Origin: Paraburkholderia fungorum
GTDB taxonomy: Bacteria; Pseudomonadota; Gammaproteobacteria; Burkholderiales; Burkholderiaceae
Direction of reading: 5' to 3'
Length of the DNA: 64,000 nucleotides
Assembly (NCBI RefSeq): GCF_900099835.1
Contig: NZ_FNKP01000003.1
Span: forward strand, 1,054,001 to 1,118,000
The notes under the pieces are model-generated. The model did no database searches. It was not told the DNA's origin and saw nothing but the letters and a program-made list of their open reading frames with translations. This document shows, piece after piece, positions 5,979 through 21,280 of the stretch. Every line of letters begins with the position of its first letter. The first letter of the stretch is position 1. Position numbers and translations under genes: made by a program.

Positions 5979-6237
5979 GCTAGATTGCTTCCAATTTAGT
6001 TTTCGAGGGTCTTCGCCATTTTAGTCTACGCTACGCAATTGCCGATTTTCTCGAACCCACGCCTGCCCCTGAAGGCAGCTCCGTGGGGAACGGTAGAATA
6101 CCGAGCCGACGGCACTCGGCTCTCGAGACGTTCAGGTTGAAACCTTGATGGTTTGCGTCTCTTACCGCGTTGCCATCGACAACCTTAAGCCGGGATTTTA
6201 GCAGTGAAGCAGATGCCGTCCGTGACGTTGGGGCTGG

Positions 6238-6378
6238 TGAGAAAGCGGAATAAAATGCGATACCGGCCGCCAAGGTTGCGCAGCGGTCCGAAATGAAACC
6301 GACGACAGCGTCGCGAAACACCTTAAAGAAATCTCGCTGGTATGCTCGGCCAGATGAAGCCGTAACCCGCGGGTTCAT
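6238..6378 (-). pseudogene. N-terminal fragment of a YihY/BrkB-family membrane protein
   Basis: The first 47 residues match the start of the YihY/virulence factor BrkB family: FFKVFRDAVVGFISDRCATL followed by AAGIAFYSAFS. Similarity stops at SPAPT, just where the first membrane helix should continue. The frame then runs on through unrelated sequence to 6031. A full-length protein would have about 280 residues or more and six helices. The gene is therefore a 5' remnant and not expected to work. Confidence 0.7.
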
Positions 6379-6387
6379 GACGTTCCG

Positions 6388-6555
6388 TCACGCCGTCGGG
6401 TCTTCGTCAACTTCTTCGCCATCCTCAGACCCTATCCGTGTCGTGCCGCCGGTAGGAGACGGATCGCTTGCAGGGAAAGAGTCCTCAATTGTTTTGTCGA
6501 TGTCTTTCTCAGATTTCTCGTCACCTAGATTCTGTACCTTCGGGGTAGTGGTCAT
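6388..6555 (-). CDS. Small acidic, probably disordered protein
   Basis: Starting at the ATG at 6555 (weak GAAGA box), the 55-residue product is MTTTPKVQNLGDEKSEKD followed by a segment containing DSFPASDPSPTGGTTRIG and an acidic tail. The 'D-F-PASDPP' motif is shared by many small Burkholderiaceae and rhizobial proteins of unknown function. A longer frame from 6621 adds an N-terminus without a convincing start. The gene lies between a decayed gene and a DUF6723 gene on the same strand. Confidence 0.65.
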   Translation of the reverse strand: MTTTPKVQNLGDEKSEKDIDKTIEDSFPASDPSPTGGTTRIGSEDGEEVDEDPTA

Positions 6556-6628
6556 GTTTTCTTCGTGAGTTGATGCATCGTGGTGCGGAAAGGAATTCCG
6601 AATGGCATGCAGTGTCGACACAACGGAA

Positions 6629-6895
6629 CTAGTCTTCCGGATTCAACAGGTCCGAACTGATGAGGCGTGAAGCAAACGCGTGGGCGGCATTACGTGCTTC
6701 CTCGAATGTCGGGAAAGGTCCGATGTCTGGTGCGCCATCGAACGGATGGAGAACACGGCCATCCGTTTTTCGTATAACTGAAAGCGTCCCAAAGTAGATG
6801 CCTTTGTGGACGCTTTTGCTCGCAACACTTACGGCGTAGTCATCGGTGGTACTTGGCCGCGCCGGTCGGCCCAGCAAGGAAAGGGGACGCGCCAT
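6629..6895 (-). CDS. DUF6723-like protein
   Basis: The 88-residue product has the compact pattern of the DUF6723 family as I recall it: a strand-rich part with HKGIYFGTLSVIRKTDGRVL, then FDGAPDIGPFPTFEEARNAA, and a C-terminal helix. It is probably a small soluble protein of unknown function. The gene directly abuts the broken iron permease upstream (no gap between the stop at 6896 and this start), so the two were probably co-transcribed. Confidence 0.65.
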   Translation of the reverse strand: MARPLSLLGRPARPSTTDDYAVSVASKSVHKGIYFGTLSVIRKTDGRVLHPFDGAPDIGPFPTFEEARNAAHAFASRLISSDLLNPED

Positions 6896-7449
6896 CTACT
6901 TGACTTCCTCGGCTACCGTCTGCTCGAGACGATGCTTTTTTGGTTCAGAGTTTCTGCGTGCCTGTTCGACACAACTCTCCACGCTATCTTGCGACCCGTC
7001 CCGACCACCTATTTTCTTGGCAAGTTCGAGGTAAGCAGTAGCAATTCGCCGCAAGTCTTCCTCCGATGCATCCTCAATCCCGATAAGCTGATTGCTTGCG
7101 GTGCGGTTTGACGCCAGCAGTTCGTTCAACTTGAGGTGAACGGCAACGCTATCTTTGTTCTGGCTTTGCTGAATGAGAAAAACCATCAGGAAGGTGACGA
7201 TGGTCGTTCCTGTGTTGATAACCAGCTGCCAATCTTCTGAAAATTTAAAGATGGGGCCACAGGTTAACCAGACGACCACGGACAGGACGGCGACGCCAAA
7301 GGCGACAGGAGACCCGCCCACCGCGTCACAGCAGCAGCGAACAGGTCGAATGCTTTCGTTATCGGATTTCGCGATGCGTAAGCGGGACTGGATGTGTTTG
7401 GGACGGAATCTAGCCGGTCAACGGAAGTGTGATGCAGCGAGTCTGGCAT
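6896..7449 (-). pseudogene. Low-affinity iron permease family protein, single-base frameshift
   Basis: Two frames together make one protein of the low-affinity iron permease family (PF04120). The upstream frame, from the ATG at 7449, ends NPITKAFDLFAAAVTRWAG. The downstream frame resumes at once with GSPVAFGVAVLSVVVW, then NTGTTIVTFLMVFLIQQSQ and KDSVAVHLKLNELLAS, the family hallmark. The junction reads tggGCGGGTctcctg on the coding strand; one more G would restore a single frame. An internal GTG at 7321 could only yield a product lacking the first part of the protein. The break may be a true mutation or a base-call error in a G run. Confidence 0.75.
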
Positions 7450-7578
7450 GGAATGTCTCCAACTGAGTGATGCCGTTTAGCTCGCACGCAAGGAATGTCA
7501 GCGCAGGTGGCCACGGAGGAAATACGCGTATGCCGTTTAAGGCATAGGTGCATAGCTATTGGACACCGCAATTACCGT

Positions 7579-7608
7579 GCCGCGAAGTCATCGCGGCAGG
7601 TTTTTTTT
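7579..7608 (+). terminator. Strong rho-independent terminator (plus strand) without an obvious gene
   Basis: GCCGCGA, loop AGTCA, TCGCGGC, then AGG and eight T. The structure is textbook, yet no plus-strand gene lies upstream, since the neighbour to the left is transcribed the other way. It may end a small RNA starting between 7450 and 7560. Confidence 0.75.
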
Positions 7609-7620
7609 CAGAAGCCGGAT

Positions 7621-7646
7621 AAAAAAGCCCGCGCACGGCGCGGGCT
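7621..7646 (-). terminator. Hairpin with a T run on the minus strand
   Basis: AGCCCGCGC, loop ACG, GCGCGGGCT, preceded on the plus strand by six A, so the T run lies 3' on the minus strand. It lies back to back with the terminator at 7579-7608. Confidence 0.6.
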
Positions 7647-13047: not shown

Positions 13048-13323
13048 ATGAAAGTCGCGAAAAGCTGTTTTTTAGCTTGCATTTTTTTGGTCGCTTCAAG
13101 TAGCTCATTTTCGCAGGGTATGAATGGAGGCGCCGCCGAGGCGAAGGGGGCGAAAGGAACGAGCAATTCGAACGGCGAACGAGCAACGCTCACGAGCTCG
13201 CAGTCTTCCGACCCAACCGCGTCCGGGCACGCTCAGAAGAGTACGCGAAAAAAAAATACGCTTGCCAAGAGTAGGTCAGCCACTCCTGCTTCGGCTGCCA
13301 ACTCCGGTTCCGGCGGCAGTTGA
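13048..13323 (+). CDS. Small secreted Gly/Ser-rich protein (paralogue 2 of 3)
   Basis: The 91-residue product starts with a signal peptide (MKVAKSCFLACIFLVASSSS, likely cleaved after SFS). The mature part is rich in Ser, Ala, Gly and Asn, has a Lys/Arg patch (STRKKNTLAKSRS) and ends NSGSGGS. It shares overall plan and C-terminal ending with the proteins at 12221 and 19314, although the residues are poorly conserved. A GGAG box lies 7 bases upstream. The function is unknown. Confidence 0.68.
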   Translation: MKVAKSCFLACIFLVASSSSFSQGMNGGAAEAKGAKGTSNSNGERATLTSSQSSDPTASGHAQKSTRKKNTLAKSRSATPASAANSGSGGS

Positions 13324-13796: not shown

Positions 13797-15134
13797 ATGC
13801 GTAGCGATCGCCCTTCCGCAGCCGATTCCGCGCCGAACATTGCGTCAGACAGTACATCCTCTGATCCGGACCGCGGCGAGGCACGGCGACGCTTTCTGCA
13901 ACGTAGTGGCCTCAGTTTAGCGGCAGCCCTCGCGGCGGGGTCGGCGGCGCCCATCCAAGCCGCGGGTTTAGCAGCGGCCGAATCAAATGCAGTCAAGCTT
14001 TCGTTGATCCAGGACCCTGACACGGAGCAGAAGGAGCAAACGCCCGATCCGAACCTGCCTCTCGACGATCGGGTCGGCTATGCCATCGTCGGACTAGGGC
14101 GTTTATCGCTCAATCAGATTCTTCCTGCGCTGTCGCAATGCAAATATTCGAAAGTTGCGGCACTTGTCTCCGGTGATCGCAGCAAAGCATTGAAGATCGC
14201 GCGACAGTACGGCGTGCGCGGATCTGCGGTCTATGGCTACGAAAACTTCGAACATCTCGCCAGCAATCCTGAAGTTCAGGTGATTTACATCGTGCTGCCT
14301 AATGGATTGCACCGGGATTACACCGTGCGAGCGGCCAGGATAGGCAAGCACGTACTTTGTGAAAAACCGATGGCAACGAGCGTCGCGGACTGCCAGGCCA
14401 TGATCGACGCATGTCGGCAGGCGAACCGGAAACTGATGATTGCCTATCGTAGCCAGTACGAGCCGATGGACCGTTTGATTGCAAAGATGGTGAAGGATAA
14501 CCAGTTGGGTTCCCTGCGCGAATTTATCGCCGGTAATTCGCAGAATGTAGGCGACCCCACTCAGTGGCGTTTGAACAAAAAGCTGGCCGGCGGCGGCGCT
14601 TTGCCGGACATCGGTTTGTATTGTTTGAATGCGGTGCGTTTTATCACGGGACGCGAACCGGATCAGGTGTTTGCTACAGTTTCGCAACCCAAAGGTGATC
14701 CGCGTTTCAAAGAAGTAGAAGCTGGGGTGCATTTCATTCTGAGTTTCCCCGACGGCTTTTCCGCCACGTGCACCGCTAGCTACGCCAGTCACGAATCCCG
14801 CTTTTTCCGATTGCAGGGCGCGCAGGGCTGGGCCGAAATGGACCCCGCATTTGGCTACAACGGCTTGCGGCTGCTTCATGGGATGCTGCTGGACGGCAAA
14901 AATGCCGTCGTCGAATTGCAGATCGATCCGCAGGACCAGTTCGCACGCGAGATCGATCATATGTCTTCGTGCGTGAAACGCGATATCACACCGCACACGC
15001 CCGGCGAAGAGGGCCTGCAGGACCAGCGCATCATGGAAGCAATCTATGAATCCGCGCGAACGGGAAGGGCCGTTCGCCTCGATGCGGTTAGTGAGCCGAC
15101 ACGGGGACCAGAGCCTGAGGAGGAGAATTTCTGA
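13797..15134 (+). CDS. Tat-exported Gfo/Idh/MocA oxidoreductase (glucose-fructose oxidoreductase-like)
   Basis: This 445-residue protein has a twin-arginine signal (EARRRFLQRSG at residues 28-38, then a hydrophobic Ala-rich stretch), so it is predicted to be exported folded with its cofactor. The mature part is a Gfo/Idh/MocA enzyme: Rossmann motif YAIVGLGRLSLNQILPAL, the hallmark EKPMA, and a C-terminal alpha/beta domain with GGGALPDIGLYCLNA. The combination of Tat signal and these motifs is typical of periplasmic glucose-fructose oxidoreductase relatives, which keep NADP tightly bound. Substrate is unproven. A fragment of an AraC regulator gene follows. Confidence 0.85.
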   Translation: MRSDRPSAADSAPNIASDSTSSDPDRGEARRRFLQRSGLSLAAALAAGSAAPIQAAGLAAAESNAVKLSLIQDPDTEQKEQTPDPNLPLDDRVGYAIVGLGRLSLNQILPALSQCKYSKVAALVSGDRSKALKIARQYGVRGSAVYGYENFEHLASNPEVQVIYIVLPNGLHRDYTVRAARIGKHVLCEKPMATSVADCQAMIDACRQANRKLMIAYRSQYEPMDRLIAKMVKDNQLGSLREFIAGNSQNVGDPTQWRLNKKLAGGGALPDIGLYCLNAVRFITGREPDQVFATVSQPKGDPRFKEVEAGVHFILSFPDGFSATCTASYASHESRFFRLQGAQGWAEMDPAFGYNGLRLLHGMLLDGKNAVVELQIDPQDQFAREIDHMSSCVKRDITPHTPGEEGLQDQRIMEAIYESARTGRAVRLDAVSEPTRGPEPEEENF

Positions 15135-15171: not shown

Positions 15172-15516
15172 TTGGTCGATATCGTACTGCGCGATTTGAG
15201 CTGGGAACATTCCCTCGAGGTACTTTCGTCAATAGCCGGCCTGTCGGCAAGAATCGCTCGACGCCTGTTTTCCGCAACGCTCGGCCTCTCGTCGACCGAG
15301 TGGCGACAGGAGACTTTACCCGTGCGTGCGATCGATCTGCTTGCGCATGGCGAGTCCATATCGACGGTGGCAGACGCCTTGAGCCATACCAGCCCCAACA
15401 ATCTTATTGCGATGTTCCGCATTGCTTTTGACGCAACACCGGAAAGGTATGTTCGGGCTGACGGCCACGATGCTGGATCTCAACGTCGTGGCAAACTCAT
15501 TCAGCTAGCGAGTTAG
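15172..15516 (+). pseudogene. C-terminal fragment of an AraC-family regulator
   Basis: The frame, from a TTG with no good ribosome-binding site, encodes the DNA-binding end of an AraC-type regulator: ARRLFSATLGLSSTEWRQ (first helix-turn-helix) and RAIDLLAHGESISTVADAL followed by SPNNLIAMFRIAFDATPERY (second). The sensor domain that should precede it is absent; the Gfo/Idh/MocA gene ends only 37 bases before. It is best read as a truncated gene. Confidence 0.7.
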
Positions 15517-15796: not shown

Positions 15797-16126
15797 CTAG
15801 TCTTTACCTTCGTATCCATCGACACACCGCTCGACGATCGAGCGTTCCATACTGAGCACTGCGCCGCTCCGCATCAGTTCGGCCGCGTTGCGCTGATGAA
15901 GAGGATCATCGGCCAACGCCTCACGGTAATGCTCATAGGAAGCGAGAGTGAGGAAATCGATCAGGCCATACGCGACGTTCGTCGGCCCGGCGAAATCCGT
16001 CGGGAGCCAGTATCCGACGATCTTGCCCCCTGCGTTGCGGATAGCTTCCAGCTCACGCTCCACGTAGTCGCGGAAGTGTTTTAGCCGGTTTGGACCCAGT
16101 GTGTATCGAATGCAAAGGGTGTGCAT
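15797..16126 (-). CDS. NIPSNAP family protein
   Basis: The 109-residue product is a NIPSNAP-type ferredoxin-fold protein: it starts MHTLCIRYTLGPNRLKHFRD and continues with GGKIVGYWLPT, VAYGLIDFLTLASYEHYREAL and a Glu/Arg-rich end. Bacterial members are small dimeric proteins of uncertain role, often near catabolic genes. The ATG at 16126 was chosen because the frame upstream of it is only antisense-like extension over the preceding gene. It begins 8 bases after the stop of the hydrolase-protoglobin gene, so the two form an operon and probably act together. Confidence 0.8.
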   Translation of the reverse strand: MHTLCIRYTLGPNRLKHFRDYVERELEAIRNAGGKIVGYWLPTDFAGPTNVAYGLIDFLTLASYEHYREALADDPLHQRNAAELMRSGAVLSMERSIVERCVDGYEGKD

Positions 16127-16134
16127 GTTTTGAC

Positions 16135-17745
16135 TCAAAAGTCGCCTGGGTTCATGTACGGTTGTGACCAGAGAGTCACCTGGAGAATCATCGACTTCCA
16201 CCACGCTTCCTGCATACGCTGAACGACATCTGGAGAATGGCCGCCTTTCTCGAGATAAGGGCGCATTGGCGCGACGGTTGCAGCAGCGAAACCGATGATG
16301 TCTCGGCCACGAATATGAGCGGCAGTGTTGGCGTTGTCGGTGACGTTTTTTTTCGCGCGGTGGTGACGCAATCCGATTTCGTACTGGTAGTCGAGCCATT
16401 CCTGATCGTATTCCGCCCGTGCTGTATCAAGCACCCACTGGGCAAAGCGCTTGCCGACTGCCGCACCATACTCCTTGTCAGGCTCACCGGTTTCCCGGTC
16501 GAAGCTGTAGCTGGCGAGGTGTACGTGCTGCGCAATGATTCCCCGCCACATCGTGACAAGATTTTCGGCCTGATCCTTCAGTACGTCGTAGCTGAGACGG
16601 AGATAGACCATATCTTCGTCGCTGAACAGGCACGTCGCCTTCAGATCTTTTAGCTCATCCAGTGTGATCGGCGACTTGGCAACTTGGTCCGTGCCTGGGT
16701 TGTAGCCGGGAATGTCCTTACTTTCATGGTGATCCTGCATCATGGTCTCTCCTGAAGTGTGCCCTGTCGGGCGAACGGTAATGCTGCCCGCAAGAAATGC
16801 AATGCTTTCTTGCCAGAGCGCCGTACGCATCTGTTCGAGGTGCATGAGGTGAGTTCCGCGAGAGATGGTAATTATCCGACGCTCGGCCGCGCGAACGAGA
16901 TGATCGAACAGCCACTGAGCGTCCGATTCGGATGACACACCATCCCAACTGCCGCGAATAATTGCAACAGGTGCAACTATCGCCTGCGGCGCCCACGCCA
17001 GTTCACCGTGCCATGCACGAAGAATCTCGACTAGCGGGCCTGTCGGTGTCATGACCGCAGGCGGGGCCCGATCACGCGAACCCGGATCGCTATCGAGATA
17101 GGCTTCGGCCCAGACTGCAAAATCCTCGCGCGATAGCACTGGGGACTCCCCGGGCGGGACATCTTCCACGAAGCGGTCATATTGGTCTTCGTTCGTCACG
17201 AATTTCCACGCGGGCAAGGTCGGACGCGGCATATAGCGTGGCCCTTGGCGACACGCTAACGGCGCAAACATTACTACGCGATCAACCTGCGTCGGATGGT
17301 GACACGCAAAGATTCCGGCGGGCATCGAGCCCCAACTATGAGTAATGAGGGATACGCGCGCACAACGGCTGCGTTCAAGGATGAAGTGCACGGCGGCTTC
17401 GACTTGTCCAACTGCACATGCCGCGAGGCTCAGTGGTTGCCCGGCGTCAGCGTCGTCATCCATCTGAGGAAATCGATCAGACCCGCCGAAACCGAGGAAA
17501 TCAAGAGCCCAGACATCGAGTCCGGCCGCGCTGAGCGCGTCGCGCCAGGAGCGGCCTTCAAAGCGATATGCGACAGATAGCGCTGATGGGAAAGTTGCGC
17601 CGTGCAAATACAGAACAGGCGATCGGCCAGCTGGATTTTGTGGGGGCAGATATCGAAGGAATATCTGTAGGCCATCACTGCCGCTGTCCACGAGGAAAGT
17701 TTCTTCGCGGGGGTCGAGTTTGCGGCGATGCGTGTCGGTGAACAT
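16135..17745 (-). CDS. Alpha/beta hydrolase fused to a protoglobin domain
   Basis: This 536-residue reading frame joins two proteins. Residues 1-325 are an alpha/beta hydrolase: SPVLYLHGATFPS, nucleophile elbow THSWGS (Ser137), probable acid Asp268 in GSWDGVSS, probable His299 in GTHLMHL. Residues 362-536 match the protoglobin family (PF11563): TLDELKDLKATCLFSDEDM, MWRGIIAQHVHLASY, and the haem-binding proximal region YEIGLRHHRAKKNVTD with His461/462. No signal peptide is seen. A Shine-Dalgarno lies just before internal Met335 (see 16747-16753), so a free protoglobin may also be made. A GAGG box precedes the ATG at 17745. A NIPSNAP gene follows 8 bases downstream. I know of no described hydrolase-protoglobin fusion. 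Confidence 0.85.
   Translation of the reverse strand: MFTDTHRRKLDPREETFLVDSGSDGLQIFLRYLPPQNPAGRSPVLYLHGATFPSALSVAYRFEGRSWRDALSAAGLDVWALDFLGFGGSDRFPQMDDDADAGQPLSLAACAVGQVEAAVHFILERSRCARVSLITHSWGSMPAGIFACHHPTQVDRVVMFAPLACRQGPRYMPRPTLPAWKFVTNEDQYDRFVEDVPPGESPVLSREDFAVWAEAYLDSDPGSRDRAPPAVMTPTGPLVEILRAWHGELAWAPQAIVAPVAIIRGSWDGVSSESDAQWLFDHLVRAAERRIITISRGTHLMHLEQMRTALWQESIAFLAGSITVRPTGHTSGETMMQDHHESKDIPGYNPGTDQVAKSPITLDELKDLKATCLFSDEDMVYLRLSYDVLKDQAENLVTMWRGIIAQHVHLASYSFDRETGEPDKEYGAAVGKRFAQWVLDTARAEYDQEWLDYQYEIGLRHHRAKKNVTDNANTAAHIRGRDIIGFAAATVAPMRPYLEKGGHSPDVVQRMQEAWWKSMILQVTLWSQPYMNPGDF
16747..16753 (-). promoter_or_regulatory. Internal Shine-Dalgarno before the protoglobin domain
   Basis: The coding strand reads AGGAGAGACC immediately before the two Met codons 335-336 of the fused frame (16743-16738). 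Spacing and strength are those of a genuine start site, so the protoglobin half could be translated on its own. Confidence 0.6.
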
Positions 17746-19047: not shown

Positions 19048-19313
19048 CTCAAGAGCCGGTGCACCAGATATGACAACGAGTTGATCCTACGGGCATCGTC
19101 ACACTTTGGCTATTGCACACCTGCTGAAAACGCGCGATGGTTCGAATCACTCACGCGTTAAGGGCGCAAGACGCGGAGGAAGTCTACGGCTGGCTAAAGC
19201 GAAGCACGACGCAGGGCGTCACAGGACAAGATTGCCTGTGCGCTGTGCGCGTCTCACGCATCCGTTGCAAGATTGTTCTCATCCTTAACAAAAGATTTTC
19301 TAGGAGAATTGAA

Positions 19314-19580
19314 ATGAAGAGCGACGCAATTTTCTACGCACTTTGTGCAACAGCAATGTTTTCTTCTTCCGCGATGGCGCAGAACAATCCACCGAGTTCA
19401 TCTCAAGGGTCGAACGCTGGGGACAATGTGCAATCGGCACCGGCGCACAAGTCTTCCTCCCATGCGAAGAAAATAAAACCATCCAAAGGCGAAACTGCAG
19501 GCAATTCCACGCAGCCAGGAGGTACCGCGACCCCGAGTGGCCCGGGAGCACCTGTTAGCGCAAGCGGATCAGGGAGCTAA
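19314..19580 (+). CDS. Small secreted Gly/Ser-rich protein (paralogue 3 of 3)
   Basis: From the ATG at 19314 (AGGAG box) the 88-residue product has a signal peptide, MKSDAIFYALCATAMFSSSA ending AMA, then a mature region rich in Ser, Gly, Pro, Asn and Thr, with a Lys patch (HAKKIKPSKGE) and the ending SASGSGS. The plan matches the proteins at 12221 and 13048. The longer upstream frame from 19137 has no ribosome-binding site and is not used. Confidence 0.7.
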   Translation: MKSDAIFYALCATAMFSSSAMAQNNPPSSSQGSNAGDNVQSAPAHKSSSHAKKIKPSKGETAGNSTQPGGTATPSGPGAPVSASGSGS

Positions 19581-20020: not shown

Positions 20021-20455
20021 CTAGGAGTTCGACTTGTGCGGGTCGCTCAAGCTCTGCAGGAGTGTGGCGAGATGGCAAGGATCTGCCGGCTTTTCGCATA
20101 GAGCGTCAAATCCGGCAGACTTGGCTTGCGAATAGTCGGATGGAGTATTGGCAGCGGTGTATGCGAGAAGTATTGAATCTGCAGTGAGCGGGTCCGCACG
20201 AAGCCGCCTGGCCACGGCGAAGCCTGACATGTCCGGCATCATTATGTCCAAGATGATATAGCTTGGTTGCCAAGTGGCGGCAATTTCAAGCGCAGCGAAG
20301 CCGCCGTAGGCTGTATGCGTTGCAAACCCAAGCAAATCAAGGCATAGCGCAACTGCGTCCGCAGAATCGACGTAGTCGTCAACGATCAGGACTCGCCGGT
20401 TTGCAATCAAGGGGCGTCGCGGTCGCGACATCATTTGGCAGCGCGGCTCGCGCAA
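20021..20455 (-). CDS. Single-domain response regulator (receiver), second copy
   Basis: This 144-residue CheY-like receiver has RVLIVDDYVDSADAVA with the acidic pair, phosphoacceptor Asp70 in YIILDIMMPDMSGF, switch Thr in LLAYTAANTP and Lys in LCEKPADP. It resembles the receiver at 5553-5978 (shared DDYxDSADA) but is clearly distinct. There is no output domain and no adjacent kinase. It may receive phosphate from the hybrid kinase at 47 kb or another kinase outside the window. Confidence 0.85.
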   Translation of the reverse strand: MREPRCQMMSRPRRPLIANRRVLIVDDYVDSADAVALCLDLLGFATHTAYGGFAALEIAATWQPSYIILDIMMPDMSGFAVARRLRADPLTADSILLAYTAANTPSDYSQAKSAGFDALCEKPADPCHLATLLQSLSDPHKSNS

Positions 20456-20719
20456 TTGATACGATTCGATTTGTGGCTCCCAGTTTGAACTTGCCAGTTT
20501 CGCGATTCCGCCTCGATCCTGAACTTATGCCGCTGTGCAGATAGTACGGTATTGCGTGCGTAGTGCGGGAAGTGAGCGAAGGTCTATTTCAGATAGAGCC
20601 TCGACCGCAAGCGATCCGGCCGCCAGCCATTGGTTTTCAATGTGCGTGCGTTTGAGCTTGCATTTCGTCGCAAGCATTTCATCACATCGTGCCCGGGATG
20701 CAGGGGCGATTGATTGGTG

Positions 20720-21180
20720 TACTGCACTGATAGCCAACAGACTGACAGCCACGATCAGCACCTTCGCCACCGGTCATTTCCAGAATGCGGTCTGCAGAAT
20801 TGCCGTCACTATCATCGACCGGAATTGCGCCGATCTTCTCTGCCAATTTCAACCGATCTGGATGGCTGTCGACGACCATTATCTTGCTCGCCCCCTTGAT
20901 TTGCGCCGAGAGTGCTGCCATTAAGCCAACTGGCCCAGCACCATAGATCACGACACTTTCGCCTGGCAACACACCGGCCAGTTCAGTAGCGTGATAGCCC
21001 AGCGGGAAAATGTCAAAGAGCATCACATAGTCATTCTCTTTTTCTTGAGCATCGGGCGGTAACACGAGACAGTTGAAATCATCGAACGGCACGCGCAGAT
21101 ACTCCGCCTGGCCGCCGCTACACGGTCCTATCCCGCCGAATCCATACGCTGCACCGGCCACGCCCGGATTCGCGGTGGAT
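20720..21180 (-). pseudogene. Internal fragment of an FdhA-type formaldehyde dehydrogenase gene
   Basis: The frame encodes about 155 residues nearly identical to residues 106-260 of the intact FdhA encoded at 45291-46427: TANPGVAGAAYGFGGIGP, GESVVIYGAGPVGLMAAL and RILEMTGGEGADRGC. The catalytic zinc ligands (N-terminal) and the C-terminal third are missing, and both ends run into unrelated sequence. It is a two-sided truncation and cannot make an active enzyme. Confidence 0.9.
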
Positions 21181-21280
21181 TCATGCAGTTGTCGCATACG
21201 CCACAGCGCCGCAATGCGAAGGACAAGCAGAACATGTAGTGTGACAATAAGGCGGGGAAACCGACGAGAGCGCCTTGCTC

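Follow-up and report, generated by a model that had tools for sequence, protein, structure and literature searches.

We analyzed a 64,000-nucleotide stretch of Paraburkholderia fungorum DNA (contig NZ_FNKP01000003.1, positions 1,054,001 to 1,118,000, referred to here as the window), in which one open reading frame (ORF) encodes an alpha/beta hydrolase followed by a protoglobin. A preliminary description had reported this fused frame within the span 15797..17745, with a NIPSNAP gene starting 8 bases later. Both statements held on inspection: the frame of 536 amino acids (aa) runs on the minus strand from 17745 down to 16135, its stop codon occupies 16137-16135, and the NIPSNAP gene begins with an ATG at 16126 and ends at 15797. 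The reported span, given without a strand, covers the fusion gene plus the NIPSNAP gene, both on the minus strand. The features of the locus are listed below.

16135..17745, minus strand: complete fused ORF (alpha/beta hydrolase plus protoglobin, 536 aa), with ATG at 17745-17743 and stop codon at 16137-16135.
16786..17745, minus strand: hydrolase part, residues 1-320, assigned by Pfam, the invariant triad, and the predicted fold.
17335-17337, 16942-16944, and 16849-16851, minus strand: codons of the triad residues Ser137, Asp268, and His299, respectively.
16720..16785, minus strand: linker, residues 321-342, predicted to be disordered (predicted local distance difference test [pLDDT] below 50) and weakly conserved save for the putative internal start signal.
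16747..16753, minus strand: Shine-Dalgarno-like AGGAGAG, in frame within Ser-Gly-Glu.
16135..16743, minus strand: protoglobin frame of 202 aa from the candidate internal ATG at 16743, with a second ATG at 16740.
16363-16365 and 16543-16545, minus strand: codons of the protoglobin residues His461 (proximal) and Arg401 (B10), respectively.
15797..16126, minus strand: NIPSNAP gene, 109 aa, assigned by Pfam, 8 nucleotides downstream of the stop codon of the fusion.

All three assignments were above the Pfam cut-offs. The families Abhydrolase_6, Abhydrolase_1, and Hydrolase_4 matched within residues 43-306 (43.9-44.6 bits; cut-offs, 25.8-27), Protoglobin PF11563 matched residues 363-533 (65.3 bits; cut-off, 25), and NIPSNAP PF07978 matched the downstream gene (48 bits; cut-off, 22.3). 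The Pfam scan of the 536-aa protein revealed no signaling or transmitter domain, and the globin is C-terminal. A search for promoters and terminators returned 0 and 1 sites, respectively, which is no more than in shuffled sequences.

The Ser137/Asp268/His299 triad named in the preliminary description is the same in all 30 of the fused proteins aligned, among them that of the window, and together with the predicted fold it places the N-terminal half in the alpha/beta hydrolase superfamily. The model of this half resembles many alpha/beta hydrolases about equally, among them gastric lipases, StnA, and esterases, and indicates no specific substrate. Haloalkane dehalogenase (NF002043) was rejected as an assignment, with 25.3 bits against a curated cut-off of 265; dehalogenases use Asp as the nucleophile, and Ser occupies this position here.

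The C-terminal half is a complete protoglobin, as had been proposed, and sequence and predicted fold agree on this point. It shares 46% identity with Methanosarcina protoglobin. From residue 10 to the end, its 202 residues align with residues 5-195 of the M. acetivorans protoglobin (MaPgb), 195 being the last residue of the latter; since the alignment begins at MaPgb residue 5, the N-terminal extension typical of free protoglobins is present. In the structure model, residues 344-536 superpose on the same MaPgb residues, 5-195. His461, within the motif YEIGLRHHRAKK, aligns with MaPgb His120, described as the proximal His(F8) in PMC3680402, and a His occupies this position in 117 of 118 rows of fused proteins and in all 168 rows of free ones. 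The distal Trp(B9)-Tyr(B10) pair, which is a feature of MaPgb and not one shown to define PF11563, is incomplete: the Trp is retained in 118 of 118 fused rows, whereas B10, a Tyr in MaPgb, is Arg in 117 of the 118 fused rows and in 140 of the 168 rows from free protoglobins (257 of 286 overall). This Arg may alter ligand handling at the heme.

The start motif within the linker

Among fused relatives, the linker varies in length and sequence apart from one motif. To describe it, we used 115 linkers (126 fused rows minus 6 without an excisable linker and 5 duplicate loci) and took as the candidate start the Met closest to nine residues ahead of the globin core. A Met where free protoglobins begin was present in 106 of the 115 linkers, compared with 0.9% of the other linker residues; its distance from the core was nine residues in 60, ten in 14, and fourteen in 16 of the 106 cases. 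Of the nine linkers without it, six carry Val and two Leu at the site, and P0222 has no linker. If the corresponding codons are assumed, Val and Leu would fit GTG and TTG starts.

The residues ahead of this Met are constrained as well. Position -4 is Gly in 86 of the 106 linkers. At position -3, Glu, Ala, Asp, Gly, or Val occurs in 92 of 106; among the 86 linkers with Gly at -4, 80 have one of these residues at -3, where 37% would be expected from linker composition. Because these five amino acids share GNN codons, a Gly followed by one of them spells GGNG, and the constraint consequently looks like the DNA sequence GGAG rather than a protein motif. G[AVDEG] stood at the right distance in 84 of 106 linkers (mean, 8.9, and maximum, 20, in 2000 shuffles) and in 16 of the 22 scorable representatives of 28 clusters, compared with 4 of 1067 other internal Met residues of the same proteins. 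Two linkers are exact repeats (L023/P0040 and L025/P0068), and when these are left out, the motif is present in 82 of 104.

At the DNA level, the sequence upstream of the internal ATG is AGGAGAGACC-ATG in the window gene, AGGAGCAGATACC-ATG in L023, GGAGCAACGACC-ATG in L024, and AGGAGCACAGACT-ATG in L025. In all five hydrolase-linked protoglobins, namely, these four fused genes and the two-gene locus L054, GGAG is located 5-8 nucleotides ahead of an ATG. Duplex energies at the five starts ranged from -5.6 to -8.1, compared with a median of -2.4 at random positions, although they were taken at the best-paired start, a choice that favors low values. An inner start would yield 202 aa, which matches the typical length of free protoglobins: 86 of 120 listed close free relatives measure 199-203 aa, and 70 of the 120 measure 201-202 aa. 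The linker thus has a conserved in-frame start codon with a Shine-Dalgarno-like motif, as expected of a gene within a gene, and the gene probably makes a free protoglobin in addition to the fusion.

Distribution and phylogeny of the fusion

A search of 5.8 billion proteins, in which 8000 candidates were scored and 1902 hits obtained, confirmed that the domain pair recurs: 110 of the 120 matches listed, the window's own included, carry both domain kinds, at identities from 100% down to 44%. Organisms named among the listed fused matches are Candidatus Tumulicola, Gemmatimonadaceae, and Terriglobales. Full-length fusions in named genome contigs were found in 3 of the 80 loci kept from 136 relatives, namely, L023 (Bryobacterales), L024 (Xanthobacteraceae), and L025 (Alphaproteobacteria). 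The preliminary description had pointed to neighborhoods in other Burkholderiaceae. In the family draw, 1 of 249 genomes matched over the full length; this was the source genome itself, as it was for the 1 of 398 genomes matched in the phylum draw (3 to 5 candidates scored per genome in both draws) and for the single fusion in 144 genomes of the genus. In the source genome, the fused protein is matched once. NIPSNAP is matched four times, at three places, with two of them adjacent. None of the 26 pattern matches in a scan of viral contigs was a relative, and none of 20 matching plasmid records spanned 80% of the query. The fusion is rare in the genomes searched and was met mostly among metagenome proteins.

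When the hydrolase part served as the only basis for ranking relatives, fusions made up 31 of the first 38 matches, a cut chosen after the list was seen, and 37 of the 120 matches listed. Most members of the nearest clade retain the in-frame join, but there are exceptions. L054 (Acidobacteriaceae) represents a two-gene form, with a hydrolase ORF at 5986-7023 and a protoglobin ORF at 7020-7637 that overlap in ATGA; the protoglobin start of L054 has the same kind of Shine-Dalgarno sequence as the fusions. In L026 and L068, a remnant hydrolase tail precedes an intact protoglobin start, in frame in the former and out of frame in the latter.

Fused members fall in separate protoglobin subclades. 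The protoglobin tree of 98 rows contained 20 changes between the fused and free states, of which at least 10 were forced by well-supported branches. Some free metagenome ORFs, such as P0122 with P0257, whose contigs are equal in length, look like frame-shifted pieces of a fusion. Since free labels may therefore include broken fusions, we repeated the tree with free rows taken exclusively from loci (67 rows) and obtained 9 changes, at least 4 of them forced. A careful tree of 45 rows (16 fused and 29 free, with L054 as free) gave 10 changes, at least 7 forced, and rejected a single clade of fused rows with a p-AU (approximately unbiased test) of 0.0003, a value weakened by the fact that the rows were hand-picked after the first protoglobin tree was seen. 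A hydrolase tree built from 130 of 147 representatives, 55 of them fused, required 18 changes, at least 9 of them forced; with a midpoint root, used for drawing only, the earliest branches are free hydrolases, many of them with an ABM neighbor. The fusion has thus been gained or broken repeatedly, and rejection of one clade does not separate repeated fusion from one fusion followed by repeated loss.

Partner genes of the hydrolase and the protoglobin

Profiles for hydrolase, protoglobin, NIPSNAP, and ABM were run against the loci, and hydrolases with a score of 440 or more were considered close. A number of observations can be derived from these data. (i) In the 48 close hydrolase loci with room for a downstream gene, the next gene encoded an ABM protein in 34, a protoglobin in 5, both in none, and neither in 9. 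Three pairs of rows are equal in score and probably represent one locus each, which changes these numbers to 31, 5, 0, and 9 of 45. The five loci with a protoglobin partner are the four fused ones and L054, and no ABM protein was found downstream in the flanking DNA examined of these five. Among 47 distant hydrolase loci, ABM was next in 20 and protoglobin in none. (ii) Upstream of close hydrolases, NIPSNAP was found in 4 of 49 loci and a small ABM protein in 12 of 49, including the fusion L025, where the small ABM gene is directly upstream; upstream of distant hydrolases, NIPSNAP was found in 5 of 47, of which L080 and L105 may be one locus. (iii) NIPSNAP directly follows the fusion in the window and in L023, and 5 of 42 free protoglobin loci have a NIPSNAP gene within 250 nucleotides on the same strand. 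The tie of NIPSNAP to this neighborhood is thus supported: the gene lies next to the fusion in these two loci and near some unfused relatives of the hydrolase or the protoglobin half. NIPSNAP and ABM are members of the same fold superfamily, and a NIPSNAP or small ABM protein goes along with several gene combinations.

Pfam confirmed NIPSNAP or ABM in L023, L025, L046, L029, L183, L184, and L201, and a Methylorubrum plasmid is annotated in the order NIPSNAP, hydrolase, antibiotic biosynthesis monooxygenase. The downstream ABM proteins of L029 and L046 matched no NCBIfam model. The L029 protein was predicted to consist of two ferredoxin-like halves (pLDDT, 84.7). Its best Foldseek matches were an anthrone oxidase-like protein, WhiE-ORFI, and putative monooxygenases, with low whole-chain template modeling (TM) scores (0.33-0.39 for the top four, at a root mean square deviation over 15); a single half taken by itself scored 0.82. 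Barrel-type heme proteins, such as HmoB, were among the lower-ranked matches. The NIPSNAP protein had no sequence match among solved structures up to an E value of 0.1. Eight ORFs downstream of close hydrolases without an ABM match comprised one cupin, one PEP mutase, and six without a family.

Several further observations concern these genes and their surroundings. The pair of hydrolase and ABM is conserved in Bradyrhizobium, Methylobacterium, and relatives (loci such as L027-L051, L147-L149, and L186-L190). In L183, L184, L201, and L208, free protoglobin genes immediately follow NIPSNAP genes; these genomes were reached as relatives of an Acidobacteriaceae or Bryobacterales record, and no hydrolase of the fusion's family was found in the flanking DNA examined. 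On the Hymenobacter plasmid NZ_CP095067.1, a protoglobin and a hexameric tyrosine-coordinated heme protein are both annotated under one match. In the window itself, the fusion and NIPSNAP genes are flanked by a Gfo/Idh/MocA oxidoreductase with an RRRFLQRSG-type N-terminal leader (13797-15134, plus strand; nearest NCBIfam model, Gfo6 xylose dehydrogenase, 242 bits, under the cut-off of 350) and by a 114-aa AraC-type helix-turn-helix piece convergent with the operon, in which no sensor part was recognized (15172-15516, plus strand). Two small Ser/Gly-rich ORFs lie on either side (13048-13323 and 19137-19580, plus strand) and, by eye, have signal-peptide-like stretches and similar GSG-type tails. 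A lone response-regulator receiver domain (20021-20455, minus strand) and a short zinc-dehydrogenase piece that looks truncated (20682-21197, minus strand; PF00107, half of the profile matched) follow.

Interpretation and comparison with known systems

Sequence comparison establishes one gene with two domains, an inner start motif, alternative partners of the hydrolase, and barrel-protein neighbors. On balance, we lean toward a dual-product gene in a small metabolic module, in which the protoglobin would be the heme partner in the place of the ABM protein. That an ABM monooxygenase-type protein holds the place of the protoglobin in related loci suggests an enzyme partner, and the protoglobin is most likely a catalytic one. 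We infer that the cell produces both proteins, that the two pair with each other, and that the globin acts as a catalyst. Ribosomes starting at 17745 would produce a serine hydrolase flexibly tethered to a protoglobin (approximately 58 kDa), whereas those starting inside the linker, at the conserved Shine-Dalgarno sequence and ATG, would produce a free protoglobin of approximately 22 kDa. Because there is no stop codon between the domains where they are fused, the hydrolase would be made only as part of the fusion. MaPgb is a dimer according to PMC3680402, and the free protoglobin may pair in the same manner with the globin tail of the fusion and determine how many hydrolase arms each globin dimer carries. 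The third component would be a small alpha/beta-barrel protein, here NIPSNAP. The heme would perform chemistry with O2, peroxide, or nitrogen oxides, acting on the small hydrophobic substrate of the hydrolase or close to it and taking the oxygen- or peroxide-dependent step that otherwise falls to the ABM protein, and the hydrolase would cleave the product or prepare the substrate. A wider version of this proposal, in which protoglobin is a natural metabolic enzyme that repeatedly replaced an ABM-type oxygen-using partner, the inner start sets the ratio of fused to free protein, and mixed dimers put the hydrolase by the heme, is tentative and, in our view, rather doubtful.

A number of observations weigh against a dual-product gene with a heme partner. 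Synonymous recoding of the four fused genes gave equal pairing in 311, 635, 1064, and 694 of 3000 trials (10-35%), which is not significant, and other in-frame ATG codons pair as well or better upstream (codon 519 in the window gene, 514 in L024, and 528 in L025). The case for an internal start consequently rests on the comparative motif, for which DNA was read in the four fused genes and the remaining linkers are protein sequences; alternatively, the motif may have survived from an earlier state with two genes. With respect to the partner, protoglobin is in the minority (5 of 96 hydrolase loci with room), neither partner is next in 27 of 47 distant as compared with 9 of 48 close loci, the ABM loci are mostly from Alphaproteobacteria and not independent, and neither NIPSNAP nor an ABM gene was found in the flanking DNA examined of L024 and L054.

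Other explanations need to be weighed against this evidence. The conserved internal start, the two-gene form L054 with its ATGA overlap, the intermixed fused and free labels on the trees, and the hydrolase tails before intact protoglobins in L026 and L068 speak for two separately translated proteins, in which the protoglobin arises by translational coupling and the run-through reflects a tolerated, incidental loss of the stop codon. Yet fusion in 31 of the 38 nearest hydrolases exceeds what indifference to frame would produce, even though these rows are related and the other seven are mostly without neighbor information, and where no stop codon is present the hydrolase is obtainable only as a fusion; we consider this explanation unlikely. 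A mere local sequencing or assembly error has next to no probability. Breaks do occur in relatives, as the pieces P0122 and P0257 illustrate, but a frame error or chance join is ruled out by the many fused relatives of several sources, including the genome contigs L023, L024, and L025, and homologs are far from being always two separate genes.

The remaining explanations concern the heme. The preliminary description had proposed a heme-based gas or redox sensor, in which the protoglobin would bind O2, nitric oxide (NO), or CO and switch the tethered hydrolase on or off. The covalent link between hydrolase and globin, the ligation-dependent tertiary states of MaPgb (PMC3680402), and the grouping of protoglobins with globin-coupled sensors and sensor globins (PMC4020757) are compatible with such a sensor. 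However, the 22-residue tether is predicted to be disordered, the globin is C-terminal with no transmitter domain found and retains its own start signal, near globin relatives also occur free, 5 of 42 such loci being beside NIPSNAP, and an ABM protein occupies the place of the globin in most related hydrolase loci. The sensor proposal is thus not supported and appears improbable. Alternatively, the protoglobin could protect the pathway or the cell from NO, peroxynitrite, or O2, as a scavenger or NO dioxygenase, and not be catalytic for the pathway. In vitro, MaPgb acts as a nitrite reductase and as a peroxynitrite isomerase (PMC4020757), but a one-gene link to one hydrolase family that is otherwise followed by ABM is unexpected for general detoxification, and no NO-related family was present among 20 ORFs of seven loci scanned, 11 of which matched nothing. 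We judge protection quite unlikely.

Engineered protoglobins are valued as catalysts of carbene transfer. PMC3680402 calls the biological role of MaPgb unknown, and the conserved link to one hydrolase family, with ABM as an alternative partner, makes the natural role of protoglobin a testable question. If it is a metabolic enzyme, bacterial protoglobins would gain their first physiological role, and a heme globin would be seen to substitute for a barrel monooxygenase. The start within the fusion is a likely case of a gene within a gene whose inner product is a complete heme protein, and the single fusion reported by gene callers may be two products. The preliminary description had suggested that a heme-based sensor coupled to a hydrolase would be a new arrangement. 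In the listed titles and abstract openings of the open-license literature, we found no description of the fusion and no paper on a protoglobin-NIPSNAP link, although others could exist; the family thus appears to be undescribed so far.

In globin-coupled sensors, an N-terminal globin is followed by a signaling or transmitter domain. The fusion resembles them in that a globin of the sensor lineage shares one chain with another domain, but differs in that the globin follows an enzyme at the C terminus, connected by a tether with predicted disorder, and it therefore lies outside this class, which is mentioned in PMC3820574. Single-domain protoglobins, such as MaPgb and ApPgb of Aeropyrum pernix, differ from the fusion in that their globin is not joined to a hydrolase, and the TyrB10 of MaPgb is replaced by Arg in most of the protoglobins analyzed here. 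The rpn toxin-antitoxin genes and Cas10d/Cas11d likewise produce from one frame a long protein and a C-terminal protein with its own in-frame start, and their inner product is able to act with the long protein (PMC10327210). In the present case, the predicted inner product is a complete heme protein of a known family. Streptomyces avermitilis reportedly has a chimera of a truncated hemoglobin and ABM, on which our literature search returned no paper. This chimera also combines a globin with an alpha/beta-barrel monooxygenase-type domain, but the globin is of another class and there is no hydrolase, whereas here the barrel proteins are separate or replaced by the globin. Also comparable are the hydrolase-ABM pairs of Bradyrhizobium, Methylobacterium, and others, which have the same hydrolase family, the same partner position, and in some cases NIPSNAP or a small ABM protein upstream; their partner is an ABM protein, with two barrel halves in the case modeled (L029), in the position where the fusion carries a protoglobin.

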